A DNA stretch of 29,499 nt from Candidatus Sumerlaeota bacterium (lineage in GTDB: Bacteria; Sumerlaeota; Sumerlaeia; JAFGJS01). The position numbers were made by a program, and so were the translations under genes. Within the stretch, counting starts at the first letter, position 1. Each line of letters begins with the position of its first letter. This document shows, piece by piece, positions 1,221 through 29,430 of the stretch. Below the pieces are notes generated by a model that had not been told where the DNA came from, ran no database searches, and was given only the letters and a program-made list of their open reading frames with translations. The stretch lies in NCBI GenBank assembly GCA_016928995.1, contig JAFGJS010000148.1:1-29499 (forward strand). The letters are read 5' to 3'.

Positions 1221-1296
1221 TTCTTAATCTTAATCCTAATCTTAATCGGGTTTAGGGTCTGGGGTCTAGGGTCTGGTGAAGGAGCGGCTAACGCCG
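1221..1296. repeat. Left arm of repeat-boxed element 1: hexamer array, G4 motif, REP-like hairpin
   Basis: Reading the plus strand there are about four degenerate copies of TTAATC (1223-1248). Four G-tracts follow (GGGTTTAGGG, then GGGG, then GGG, separated by TCT/TCTA, 1248-1271), which fits a canonical intramolecular G-quadruplex. GGAGCGGCTAACGCCG (1281-1296) comes next, a GGAG tetranucleotide followed by a CGGC/GCCG palindrome. The same order of G-rich repeat then GGAG-hairpin recurs at 5405-5452. It forms an inverted pair with the C-rich array at 1917-1946 across one gene. Confidence 0.8.
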
Positions 1297-1342
1297 TACT
1301 AGATAAGATCACGATAGCCCCACGTTTTTTATAGTATGAAGA

Positions 1343-1915
1343 TTAATCACCATTTATTGTTTTGTTTTGCTCAAGATTCTTTAAATAGCATTCAAGGTTA
1401 TCGCTGATTTTTTCGAATACTCGAGGGATATAACTCGCCAATTCTTCCATACTGGGATGATCGCACATTGGACATTGATGGTAAAAACGCATATGCGAAA
1501 GGATCTGTCGCTGCTCTTCTTGTGGCAATTTCTTAAAAGGATTTTCTGCTAAGCTATCATGCAAATGGGAAAGATGAATAAAGGAACAACCAAATTCATA
1601 AACGGATTTTGTCCAACTTTGAAAATTTTGCGATGCCTTAACCATTTTTCGATCGGTTACATTCTCCCATTTTCCTTTTGATGTTTTGGTTTTCCACCTT
1701 TCGCCATTTAGCGTTTGTTGGATCAATCGTTCGCGTTCCGATAGATCATTTATTAGGAGCAAATAAATGACCCGGATCATCGAATCCAGTTCTTGACGAA
1801 GAATAGAGATTACAGGGCTCAGCATATCCAGTGGACGGCAACAACTTATCGCTAGTCGATTCTGTTCGGATCGACAGCGAACCATACTGCAAAATGTCTG
1901 TGTGTTTTTTTCCAT
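1343..1915 (-). CDS. Hypothetical low-GC protein, cargo of repeat-boxed element 1
   Basis: Not recognised. 190 aa, soluble, without signal peptide or membrane segment, largely helical in appearance, with a Cys-rich stretch near the C-terminus (HQCPMCDH) that could bind a metal. Its AT-rich codon use contrasts sharply with the GC-rich kdgK-like and SDR genes on either side, a sign of separate origin. It is tightly enclosed by inverted G-rich/C-rich arrays at 1221-1296 and 1917-1946. The start ATG at 1915 has GGGGTCTAG seven bases upstream, so the flanking repeat itself appears to supply the ribosome-binding site. The enclosed-cargo arrangement is the same as for the gene at 5484-5903, though the two proteins share no obvious similarity. 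Confidence 0.7.
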   Translation of the reverse strand: MEKNTQTFCSMVRCRSEQNRLAISCCRPLDMLSPVISILRQELDSMIRVIYLLLINDLSERERLIQQTLNGERWKTKTSKGKWENVTDRKMVKASQNFQSWTKSVYEFGCSFIHLSHLHDSLAENPFKKLPQEEQRQILSHMRFYHQCPMCDHPSMEELASYIPRVFEKISDNLECYLKNLEQNKTINGD

Positions 1916-1916
1916 T

Positions 1917-1946
1917 ACTAGACCCCAAACCCTAAACCCCAGCCCC
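1917..1946. repeat. Right arm of repeat-boxed element 1 (C-rich telomere-like array)
   Basis: The plus strand reads CTAGACCCCAAACCCTAAAC and continues C-rich; the minus strand therefore has four G-tracts (GGGG, GGGG, GGG, GGGG) with 3-4 base loops, again a G-quadruplex motif. It is inverted with respect to the left arm at 1248-1271. It ends 6 bp before the stop codon of the SDR gene, so the element fills the kdgK/SDR intergenic space almost exactly. Confidence 0.8.
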
Positions 1947-2725: not shown

Positions 2726-2880
2726 GGTTTATCTCCTGTCGCAAAAAAAATCACGCCTACGCTAAGCCGTTCGAAAACGACAATCAATTAAAATTCGGTT
2801 TTATTCTGAAGGGCTGATCGTGAAAAGAGCCGTCGTTGCATCTGTAGGCGAATAGCTTTTCAGCTCTAAAATGCATCAAA

Positions 2881-3034
2881 GGCTGTCATGATTTTTGCCC
2901 CGCAAAAATCCCGCCAGCCTGGGTTGGTTTGGCGTTTGACCCAGGGCGGCGCTCACGGCCTTCGGCCTACGCTCTGCCCTGGGCTGTGTTACCCAGCGCT
3001 TTCAGCGCTGATCAGGAGCCATGATTTAAGAGAT
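2881..3034 (+). repeat. Family A dispersed repeat, copy 1 (154 bp, three hairpins)
   Basis: This copy occupies much of the 400-bp gap between the SDR and lepB genes; the rest of that gap (2726-2880, 3035-3131) shows nothing recognisable. It has three consecutive inverted repeats: GATTTTTGC-CCC-GCAAAAATC; an arm pair CCCAGGGC...GCCCTGGG enclosing GGCC-TTC-GGCC; and AGCGCTTTCAGCGCT. It begins TGTCATGATTTTTG and ends GAGCCATGATTTAAGAGAT, so CATGATTT is present at both ends in the same direction. A near-identical copy is at 24858-25012. No open reading frame is shared between copies. Confidence 0.9.
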
Positions 3035-5404: not shown

Positions 5405-5452
5405 TTCGGGGTCTAGGGTCTGGGGTCTGGCGGTGGAGCGGCTGGCGCCGCA
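5405..5452. repeat. Left arm of repeat-boxed element 2 (G-rich array plus REP-like hairpin)
   Basis: Begins 11 bp after the permease stop codon. The plus strand reads CGGGGTCTAGGGTCTGGGGT, then GGAGCGGCTGGCGCCGC, a GGAG tetranucleotide with a GCGGC-TGGC-GCCGC hairpin. It matches the left arm of element 1 (1248-1296) in both sequence and order although the enclosed genes are unrelated. The partner C-rich array is at 5959-5981. Confidence 0.8.
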
Positions 5453-5958: not shown

Positions 5959-6165
5959 CCAGCCCCTAAACCCTGGCCCGGTCTTCTCACCGTCTCTTGT
6001 GGTCCAATGTATGCAAAATAATCACTCTTGCTCTTATGGATGTGCGACACGCTGTTCTTCGAGCAAGAGCAAGAAAACTCGGATTGAAGCATTCGACGAT
6101 TTCAATTCCACTCATCGTAGTGAAAAAACAAGGGCAGACCCCAAATCCTAGACCCCAGACCCTAT
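5959..6165. repeat. Right arm of element 2 and a further C-rich array (6136-6165)
   Basis: The plus strand at 5959-5981 reads CCAGCCCCTAAACCCTGG and is inverted relative to the left arm at 5405. A second C-rich array lies at 6136-6165 (GACCCCAAATCCTAGACCCC and on) and stops right at the stop codon of the glycosyltransferase gene. Between the two arrays are about 150 bp of low-GC sequence with only a 42-codon minus-strand frame (5997-6125) and a 9-bp inverted repeat (CTTGCTCTT/AAGAGCAAG). This could be the remnant of a second element whose cargo has decayed. Confidence 0.7.
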
Positions 6166-24857: not shown

Positions 24858-25012
24858 GGCTGTCATGATTTTTGCGGGGCAAAAATCCCGCCAGCCTGGA
24901 TTGTTTGGGCGCATACCCAGGGCGGCGCTCACGGCCTTCGGCCTACGCTCTGCCCTGGGCTGCGATCTCCAGCGCTTTCAGCGCTGATAAGGAGCCATGA
25001 TAAAAAGAGATT
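24858..25012 (+). repeat. Family A dispersed repeat, copy 2
   Basis: 155 bp, co-linear with 2881-3034 and differing mainly by scattered substitutions. The first hairpin keeps its 9-bp arms (GATTTTTGC/GCAAAAATC) while the loop is GGG instead of CCC, as if the hairpin had been flipped. The CCCAGGGC/GCCCTGGG stem and AGCGCTTTCAGCGCT are conserved. It lies in the hemE-hemN gap. Confidence 0.9.
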
Positions 25013-25196
25013 TGAATTTGCAATCCCACTCAGGGTGGAACTTACGGCTGTTGTGGGGTTCATGGCCGCTTCGCGCAGAATGAAACCGACAACCGCATTG
25101 CGAAACGCTCCGCTGGAGCCTTTCGCTGCTCTGGCTTGGGCTGGATTACGTAGCGCTTTCAGCGCTGATAAGGAGCCATGATAAAAGAGATTTGAG
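25013..25196 (+). repeat. Family B dispersed repeat, plus-strand copy
   Basis: Continues directly from family A. 25013-25135 matches the reverse complement of 29236-29360 (shared words TTACGGCTGTTGTGG, CGACAACCGC and GCGAAACGCTCCGC). 25152-25196 repeats the tail of family A (AGCGCTTTCAGCGCTGATAA, then GGAGCCATGAT and AAAGAGATTTGA). The hemE-hemN gap is thus made almost entirely of repeats; 25197-25309 shows nothing but a weak hemN leader. Confidence 0.85.
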
Positions 25197-27587: not shown

Positions 27588-27947
27588 CGTCCGGTTTTCC
27601 CTTTGCTGGATTCTATTAGTAAGCAATAGCCTATCACGCGGATTCCGGCGAGACAAGCTTTTTCACCGTCCTGCGTTATACATGCGGAGCGTGGAATCTG
27701 TTTGAGCAATTGACTAAACAAACTGGCGGCCTTTAACATTGTGCGGACTCCCTTCAGTTGGTGTGACAGATTTCAGTTTGGCGACGAAATCATGCCACAT
27801 GGCTCCAAGGGAGTCGCTTTTCAAATTCGTGTTTTGGACAAGAATGATATAGTTCATAAAACCAGTTCTTCGTGCCTTCGTGTCTTTGTGGTGAATTTTT
27901 TGAGGTTGCCTCTGCTCTCCAGAATGCCGCTGTAAAACGAAAGGTTG
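27588..27947. other. Gene-free stretch with an inverted repeat and a CTTCGTGTC-type array
   Basis: GACTCCCTT (27746-27754) and AAGGGAGTC (27807-27815) form a 9-bp inverted repeat around 52 bases. At 27866-27896 lies a degenerate array (TCTTCGTGCCTTCGTGTCTT and on), a type I recall as widespread in environmental bacteria; a left partner was not found. No gene supported. Confidence 0.5.
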
Positions 27948-28826
27948 CTATATTTTTCTGGAGCTCTGCTTTTCCACCATGAACTGAAAGCAGCGCCAAC
28001 CATAAAGCTGCCACTTGCTGAGCGTGGAAGGACGCCCCGTGTCGAGATGATGCTGCACCGCGCGCAGCCAGCGCCGTGTCTTGCGCGGAAGCCGCACCCC
28101 CTCGTTGACCACAAGCCCGGTGACCCGCTGCTGCTGGTGACGCCGCAGCACGCTCAACTTGCCCGGATGAATCCGATAGCCATATTTGCGTGAAAGCAAT
28201 TTGCGCGCCTTGACGATCAACGATCCGATGCGATCCGGATCATCGACGCGAAAGGAAAACGTCATGTCATCCGCATAGCGGGTGTACGTCGCGCCATGCT
28301 CATCCGCCAGCTTGCTCAGCAGCGCGTCCATGCCGCAATTGATCCGGTTGCTGATCGCCGGACTCGTCGGCGCGCCCTGCGGCAGACCGTCGTGATAAGT
28401 GCAAAGTTTCGTCAGCAACTCCGCTGCCCGGCGATTCCAGCCAATTTGCCGGAACCACCTGCGAACCCGCCGTTCGGATGTGGAAGGAAAGAAATTCTTC
28501 ACATCGAGCTTCACCACGACCTGCTTGCCGGCATGCGGAGCCGCGTTGCGCACGATGCCGCCGCCCGGCTCGAAACCCGTCGCCGCCAAATGGACCTTCA
28601 GCCTGCGCAGCAACCGCTGATTGATCCGCCGCTGCATGGCCTTGAGCTCCTTCGACGGCGCGCAGATCAGCCGGTTGCCGCCGCCGCGCTTGCGAATGTC
28701 AAACTCACGGTAATGAATCTTCACGGCGGATAGTTGCTGGCGGGTCACGCCAAGACGGCGAGCCAATTCTTCCAGATTGTGCCCCTGGCCGTCAAACAAA
28801 CCCAGAATGCTGTCAAGCAGCCCCAT
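27948..28826 (-). CDS. Retron reverse transcriptase
   Basis: 292 aa RNA-directed DNA polymerase of retron type, which copies the msr-msd RNA into multicopy single-stranded DNA. Retron hallmarks are both present: NAxxH (NAAPH, residues 94-98) and VTG (235-237). Polymerase motifs: VVVKLDVKNFFPS with Asp108, GLPQGAPTSPAISN (147-160), and YADD at 184-187 supplying the metal-binding Asps. The first 33 residues include an NLEELARRLGVTRQQLSAV helix-turn-helix-like start, found in front of many retron RTs. Start ATG 28826; the frame stays open upstream to 28973 but that part overlaps the predicted RNA. No fused or adjacent effector is visible: the neighbours are a secreted protein and repeats. Retrons with effectors act in anti-phage defence. 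Confidence 0.93.
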   Translation of the reverse strand: MGLLDSILGLFDGQGHNLEELARRLGVTRQQLSAVKIHYREFDIRKRGGGNRLICAPSKELKAMQRRINQRLLRRLKVHLAATGFEPGGGIVRNAAPHAGKQVVVKLDVKNFFPSTSERRVRRWFRQIGWNRRAAELLTKLCTYHDGLPQGAPTSPAISNRINCGMDALLSKLADEHGATYTRYADDMTFSFRVDDPDRIGSLIVKARKLLSRKYGYRIHPGKLSVLRRHQQQRVTGLVVNEGVRLPRKTRRWLRAVQHHLDTGRPSTLSKWQLYGWRCFQFMVEKQSSRKI

Positions 28827-28883
28827 CGCGAATTCCCGTGAAAATAATACAGCGGCCGCCCCATGCGCGGAGCAGCCGCCGTT

Positions 28884-29001
28884 CCGTTCTGCACGGACTG
28901 TCTCGCAATGTAATTGCGTGACAGTCCCAGCTCTTTTCTGCAGGCTCATCAAGCCCGGATGGCGAAACGCCATCCTGCGCGTATTAGGCGCCCCAGAACG
29001 G
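28884..29001 (-). ncRNA. Candidate retron msr-msd RNA
   Basis: Located upstream of the RT on its strand, ending 57 bp before the ATG, as in known retrons. Its ends are complementary: CCGTTCTG at the 5' side (plus coordinates 28994-29001) pairs with CAGAACGG at the 3' side (28884-28891), matching the a1/a2 pair. Inside are an 8-bp hairpin GGATGGCG-TTT-CGCCATCC (28957-28975, msr-like) and a long hairpin with arms GGACTGTC+CGCAAT / ATTGCG+GACAGTCC and one mismatch (28895-28927, msd-like). The branching G cannot be assigned with certainty; G residues follow a1 directly. The msd hairpin is short compared with most. Confidence 0.7.
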
Positions 29002-29100
29002 CTCTATTACTATGCCGCCAATCGGGCTGACGTGTCAATCTTTTCAAACAATCTAAAGCCAAAATAGACGCACATCTCTTAAGGGAACCTTATAAAATTT

Positions 29101-29191
29101 AACGCAAAGACGCAGAGACGCAAAGAACCGAATCTGTATCTACTTAAAATACAATGATTGAAATCTTTGTGTACTCTGTACCTCCGTGAGA
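29101..29191. repeat. Short inverted-array element without cargo (about 90 bp)
   Basis: Left arm 29101-29130 (AACGCAAAGACGCAGAGACG and on), right arm 29164-29191 (TCTTTGTGTACTCTGTACCT and on), inverted to each other, with 33 bp of AT-rich sequence between. It is the smallest member of this class in the window. 28827-28883 and 29002-29100 show nothing else but AT-rich leader sequence. Confidence 0.65.
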
Positions 29192-29235: not shown

Positions 29236-29430
29236 CCAAAGGTCAGAGCAGCGAAAGGCACCTGCGGAGCGTTTCGCAACGCGGTTGTCGGTTTGGTTCT
29301 CCGCAGCGACTATGAACACCACAACAGCCGTGAGCTTCACTCTGAGTGAAATGACAAATTCAAATCTCTTTAAATCATGGCTCCTTATCAGCGCTGAAGG
29401 CGCTATGTATCACAGCATAGCGCGGCGTAG
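29236..29430 (-). repeat. Family B dispersed repeat, minus-strand copy
   Basis: Reverse complement matches 24955-25135: CAGCGCTGATAAGGAGCCAT, then AAAGAGATTTGAATTTG, GGCTGTTGTGG and CGACAACCGCGTTGCG. The first arm of the AGCGCT hairpin is altered to AGCGCC, and a different stem, ATGCTGTGATACAT, stands outside it. The open frame at 29216-29479 is a by-product. The window ends 69 bp after it without further features. Confidence 0.85.

Follow-up and report, generated by a model that had tools for sequence, protein, structure and literature searches.

Eukaryotic foldback (FB) elements consist of long inverted repeats built from short tandem units, with a variable and sometimes gene-bearing loop. 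Among bacteria, GGGNATC heptamers that form G-quadruplexes occur in Xanthomonas and Nostoc as intergenic arrays of typically about four units (Rehm et al. 2015; PMC4692102). Sense-strand heptamers in Xanthomonas lie near stop codons and antisense ones near starts, and each genome has 70-75 convergent pairs; 83% of comparable arrays hold their position between species, and the authors saw no association with mobile elements (PMC4692102). The TAACTGA heptamers of the Beggiatoaceae form intergenic arrays near gene starts (PMC4679880), and the BrickBuilt MITE of Porphyromonas gingivalis combines a tandem array with inverted-repeat ends in intergenic positions (PMC4596501). The intervening sequence (IVS) of Coxiella carries an S23 ORF in a stem-loop with terminal inverted repeats, preceded by a variable number of GACAGAT heptamers (PMC4990558).

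The window analyzed here is one whole contig (C37) of 29,499 nucleotides from a 4.55-Mb Candidatus Sumerlaeota genome that is 92% complete in 161 contigs. The array motif, searched with up to three mismatches, is found 10 times in the window compared with 0.22 expected from shuffles. Element 1 lies between genes for a pfkB-family kinase and a short-chain dehydrogenase, and its right array ends 2 bp before the ATG of cargo gene 1. A sequence-only reading of this DNA had described TTAATC hexamers, a four-G-tract array and a GGAG hairpin on the left and an inverted array on the right, all of which were found where it had placed them (Table 1). The low-GC, 190-codon gene that it saw between GC-rich genes has a G+C content of 39%, and the neighboring genes have 61-64%. 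TAATCC arrays related to the hexamers flank an S23 gene at locus L345. The reading was correct that element 2 repeats the layout of element 1; the cargo of element 2 is a DUF6882 protein and not an orphan.

Table 1. Positions of the array-boxed genes and their arms in the window.
Feature	Position	Strand	Remark
TTAATC-type hexamers TTAATCTTAATCCTAATCTTAATC outside the left arm of element 1	1224..1247	+	Other repeat family of the genome; no right-hand partner
Element 1 left G-rich heptamer array GGGTTTAGGGTCTGGGGTCTAGGGTCTGG, outer left arm	1248..1276	+	Four GGG tracts
Element 1 subterminal hairpin GGAG-CGGC-TAAC-GCCG (GGAGCGGCT-AA-CGCCG), inner left arm	1281..1296	+	Confined to array ends
Cargo gene 1, 190-codon ORF	1343..1915	-	A+T-rich
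Element 1 right heptamer array	1918..1946	-	Inverted relative to 1248-1276; without hairpin
Element 2 left heptamer array	5408..5430	+	13 bp past the stop of an ABC-2 permease gene
Element 2 subterminal hairpin GGAGCGGCTGGCGCCG	5435..5450	+	
Cargo gene 2, DUF6882 protein, 139 aa	5484..5903	+	PF21813, E 9e-19
Element 2 inner right array	5959..5981	-	Degenerate
Element 2 second right array	6139..6162	-	Better conserved; a glycosyltransferase gene stops 3 bp away
Left arm of an unrelated box, CTTCGTG/CTTTGTG units (CACRAAG type)	27865..27911	+	
Retron-type reverse transcriptase (RT) gene in the box	27948..28973	-	PF00078 E 1e-21, NF038233, PADLOC retron RT models
Right arm of the RT box	29082..29128	-	Inverted relative to 27865-27911

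The arms of the RT box end in AGGNAACCT-like sequence, and this is the third array-boxed gene of the window; its arm score is borderline, at 34 versus 27 for shuffles in one run and 34 versus 36 in another. The contig starts with 11 perfect copies of the octamer GCGTTATT (positions 1-87), and this array is probably why the assembly stops there. Larger dispersed repeats with AGCGCTTTCAGCGCTGATAAGGAGCCATGAT cores lie at 2880-3034, 24858-25191 and 29244-29423; they are REP-like and possibly tied to the RAYT genes of the genome.

A heptamer search of the whole genome returned about 18 array places. Ten are intact convergent pairs (C2, C15, C37 twice, C76, C91, C104, C110, C115 and C127), six are single arrays (C11, C80, C105, C137, C157 and C161), and two further places are located at contig starts (C13 and C109). 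All ten intact GGGTCTR pairs have the G-rich array on the left and the C-rich array on the right, none is reversed, and their interiors measure about 90 to 650 bp. The sequence-only reading had proposed this inventory of inverted pairs and their contents, and ten intact pairs with several unrelated cargo genes are what it yields. Arrays scattered singly at random would, according to the same reading, have spoken against an element; the pairs prove non-random, and single arrays do occur, many of them cut at contig ends or half-degenerated.

Aligned from the outside inwards, the ends of the family consist of the array, TCTGG, TGATGGAGCGGCT, two bases, CGCCGC, and then often AAAAAAGAGAA; the GGAG hairpin belongs to the element arms. 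The copies at C76, C110 and C115 are gene-free, about 150 bp in length, and carry the same end sequence inverted on the other side. This gene-free form would be built from a (GGGTCTR)3-4 array, a TCTGGTGATGGAGCGGCT-NN-CGCCGC hairpin, an A-rich stretch and a short loop, followed by the inverted repeat of all of these. The minimal C115 copy (L011:1481-1636) folds end to end with a computed energy of -92.6 kcal/mol versus a shuffled mean of -45.6 (z -11.8). The exact combination of array and hairpin is present in no other genome in the search, and the GGGTCTR heptamer has no match in the published text searched.

The arrays lie directly at gene ends, in many cases with 0-15 bp between array and stop codon. 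We take the genes on either side of the C110 copy to be fliQ and fliR and those around the C80 array to be fusA and rpsG; flanking gene names other than nuoJ come from reading the translations. At C127, the gap between nuoI and nuoJ is 252 bp with the insert, whereas it ranges from an overlap to 47 bp in the class relatives in which it is measurable; the relatives compared are at class level, with no other member of the genus or family among them. Since the gap is short in these relatives, the C127 insert is most likely an acquisition of this lineage.

Some of the GGGTCTR boxes hold unrelated small genes, namely the 190-aa orphan of element 1, the DUF6882 gene of element 2, and an S23 gene. 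The last is the C104 cargo, an S23/IVP four-helix bundle protein (PF05635, E 3e-35) encoded between inverted repeats. One array is visible beside a 335-aa orphan at C137, where the stretch up to the RNase P RNA yielded no right arm, and one is visible beside a 169-aa orphan at C109. There is no convincing intact gene inside C15 and no gene inside C2, C76, C91, C110, C115 or C127. The protein encoded by cargo gene 1 has no significant match to Pfam, NCBIfam, PHROG or PADLOC, no homologue in 38 class relatives, and no relative among the viral contigs searched; its identity to proteins encoded by two Pseudomonas plasmids is 42-45%. Occurrence of the gene without arrays, named in the sequence-only reading as evidence against its proposal, is seen in part, because no arrays surround the plasmid homologues. 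A single-sequence structure prediction of this protein had a mean pLDDT of 45 and was too poor for use, and the five cargo proteins tested against PADLOC defence models gave no match. Spread by viruses was considered and rejected: 33 viral contigs have such arrays, and none has a convergent pair around a gene like those described here.

Box and cargo were compared across S23 loci (PF05635; L339-L345, L348-L371 and L374) of this genome, of class relatives and of other phyla. The arm score is that of a local alignment between the left 400 nt and the reverse-complemented right 400 nt, judged against shuffles. Matched inverted arms that score above all shuffles by a margin are present at 23 of 32 S23 loci and at 1 of 29 NuoJ control loci. 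Direct-orientation matches are found at 4/32 S23 loci, and about a third of S23 genes are without matched arms. The arms match between S23 loci in 0.9% of 992 comparisons; the inter-locus NuoJ comparison was left out, as it is inflated by the homologous flanking nuo genes and some loci lie in opposite orientation. Besides the C104 copy, the S23 genes of this genome are nearly all boxed by unrelated arrays (AGGCATCA, GTTCAGAGTTTAGA, TTCTCG, AAATCCG and TTAATCC), and at least six unrelated repeat boxes hold S23 genes in this genome. GxxExxY genes (PF13366; L437-L466, L392:6458-6829 and L412:12779-13162) pass the strict test at 16 of 27 loci and by score alone at 19 of 24, with CACAGAG-like or CGCGGATGAA-like arms, and one boxed copy is positioned between genes that are presumably aceF and aceE. 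Among 448 background ORFs in this genome the number passing is only 6, and S23 or GxxExxY genes account for four of these; the filters for S23 and background ORFs are close and not identical, and the statistics mix genomes.

Reading 1.15 Mb of this genome in stretches identified 30 inverted versus 8 direct short-period array pairs, and the TTCTCG, GTTCAGA, TAATCT, GCGCAGAG and GGGTCTR families also occur gene-free. A hisH-like gene, native in appearance, lies between inverted AAATCCG arrays at L397:3224-3838. Genome G047 has, at several places, pairs of divergent and partial PF05635 matches separated by about 200 bp, which may represent another S23-related repeat element.

The recurrence of S23 in boxes of unrelated repeats indicates that boxes and cargo assort independently. 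The sequence-only reading had taken the boxes, and not the cargo, to be the conserved unit; unrelated cargos in one box family agree with this, and S23 genes in unrelated boxes do not. No published description of independent assortment of box and cargo was found in open-licence papers, and the S23/GxxExxY signature may be on record elsewhere.

Similar arrays are present in many phyla. They are massively amplified in the Blastocatellia MAG SSF51, with 1916 pattern matches versus 71 for the reversed control. In 270 kb of SSF51, opposite-strand neighbors within 1 kb are G-left/C-right in 14 of 14 cases, none reversed, with 56-104 bp between them, and the SSF51 pairs have their own inner end sequence. 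Over both genomes the polarity holds in 24/24 pairs, for which the chance is 6e-8. Foldback elements with GGGTTCA arrays are very numerous at loci L291-L306 of SSF51; their inner end, GGGTTTTCGAATA...TATTCGAAAACCC, is conserved, and they form a good model set for mobility. A Verrucomicrobia MAG has an array pair of the same kind around an S23 gene, in what we take to be the interval between cysH and cysD.

The balance of probability leans slightly toward element 1 being a cargo-bearing copy of a foldback family with inverted tandem-array ends, with box and cargo as separate entities. Separate entities are the best view, given the several genes within a single box family and the many box families in which S23 occurs. 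This reading builds on the inverted pairing, fixed polarity, dispersal, presence or absence at one operon, and independent assortment, all of which are observed; mobility is inferred from dispersal, because neither a target-site duplication nor a same-species empty allele nor a mobilizing enzyme was found. The right end of element 1 without a hairpin, the two right arrays of element 2 and the third or so of S23 genes that have no matched arms count against it, and the positional stability of 83% in Xanthomonas argues for slow movement. FB elements differ in being eukaryotic and kilobase-sized, and no homology is implied.

An unlikely but serious alternative is a conventional non-autonomous transposon of the MITE, TIME or mobile insertion cassette type, in which a transposase supplied in trans would recognize the arrays and hairpin as terminal inverted repeats and would move box and cargo as one unit. 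The arms are consistent, with the array outside and the hairpin inside, and gene-free copies exist beside gene-bearing ones; the dispersed copies have terminal inverted repeats, as MITEs do, and short, dispersed units with inverted-repeat ends, with and without cargo, are a likeness to all three types. Unlike these, the family has yielded no transposase parent or target duplication: the copies examined contain no transposase, the Y1 transposase loci found by searching for that family are not flanked by these ends, and inspection of the outer flanks revealed no consistent short direct repeat. Its ends are also short tandem arrays, and the cargo families are not bound to one arm type. A fixed-end transposon predicts a link between end and cargo that is not seen; a two-layer account is the simplest. 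BrickBuilt differs in that its 23-nt array is the core between small inverted-repeat ends, whereas the arrays here form both ends.

It is improbable that there is no mobile element at all, and that the heptamers arose by slippage at gene ends, with fixed polarity and transcript-end or G-quadruplex roles, so that genes in the gaps merely look boxed. The family displays the features of the Rehm class, namely intergenic tandem GGG-N4 heptamers of several units in convergent pairs with a polarity away from the flanking genes. The same polarity rule, unit number, G-rich composition and convergent pairs near gene ends characterize the Xanthomonas heptamers (PMC4692102), and class relatives have single arrays at gene ends. 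The array box alone is not new, because Xanthomonas already provides convergent pairs of G-rich heptamers, and the sequence-only reading, which knew of no named element combining G4 arrays, a GGAG palindrome and swappable cargo, put this too strongly, although the known pairs of G4 type by gene ends are without cargo (PMC4692102). The known heptamers differ in their unit and have no reported subterminal hairpin or cargo, whereas several pairs here enclose foreign genes; the Beggiatoaceae arrays are almost always direct, with one inverted case, and form no boxes. Slippage is at odds with the non-repetitive hairpin common to the arms of both sides, with the general rarity of boxed ORFs as against their frequency among S23 and GxxExxY genes, and with the split of nuoI-nuoJ in this genome alone, as against the class relatives measured. 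Non-G-rich arrays (TTCTCG, AAATCCG and AGGCAT) behave alike, so what the boxes have in common is not the G4 property.

A REP/BIME system mobilized by RAYT transposases, suggested by a GGAG-tagged hairpin in inverted doublets and nine Y1_Tnp matches in the genome, is very improbable and in its simple form already refuted, since no dispersal of the hairpin is seen beyond the array elements and the RAYT genes have other palindromes and no GGGTCTR arrays in their flanks. The hairpin consensus has 175 + 140 genome matches versus 232 + 251 for the reversed pattern, and its clear copies adjoin arrays. The term REP, used for it in the sequence-only reading, is the wrong name because the hairpin is not dispersed elsewhere and the Y1 transposase genes lack it.

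The foldback reading would have two layers. Gene-free foldback elements would spread first, filling gaps between genes, often those of one operon, near a stop codon. Small horizontally acquired mobile genes (S23/IVP, the GxxExxY nuclease and orphans) would then preferentially enter the foldback loops, much as S23 genes occupy the stem-loop tips of 23S rRNA intervening sequences; the cargo would arrive after the box. The arms probably pair in vivo and may stay alike via arm-to-arm copying through the hairpin. Inserts in operons may be tolerated because RNase III could cut them from the mRNA, as with the rRNA IVS.

The 23S rRNA IVS shares with these boxes an S23 gene at the hairpin tip of a long inverted-repeat stem and a patchy distribution. 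The C104 copy and other S23 loci have the S23 gene between inverted repeats; element 1, with its different cargo, does not. Unlike the IVS, the boxes have tandem-array arms that differ by locus and hold other genes in the same place, and element 1 and the C104 copy are situated between protein-coding genes and not in 23S rRNA. As a tentative generalization, which we consider possible rather than probable, foldbacks with locus-specific arms may be a general landing site in operons, and S23, GxxExxY, some RT and orphan genes may be one guild that homes into DNA or RNA hairpin loops. The S23/IVP and GxxExxY families are widespread with an unclear role, and the spread of the IVS has long lacked an explanation. 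If the guild exists, rRNA intervening sequences, GxxExxY genes and anonymous CACAGAG-type repeats would be one class of mobile element. The constant signature of matched inverted arrays that are different at each locus defines the element ends and lets empty sites be sought, and it leads to the prediction that RNase III processes operon mRNAs where the inserts lie. It also unites several anonymous short tandem repeats of environmental genomes under one architecture.
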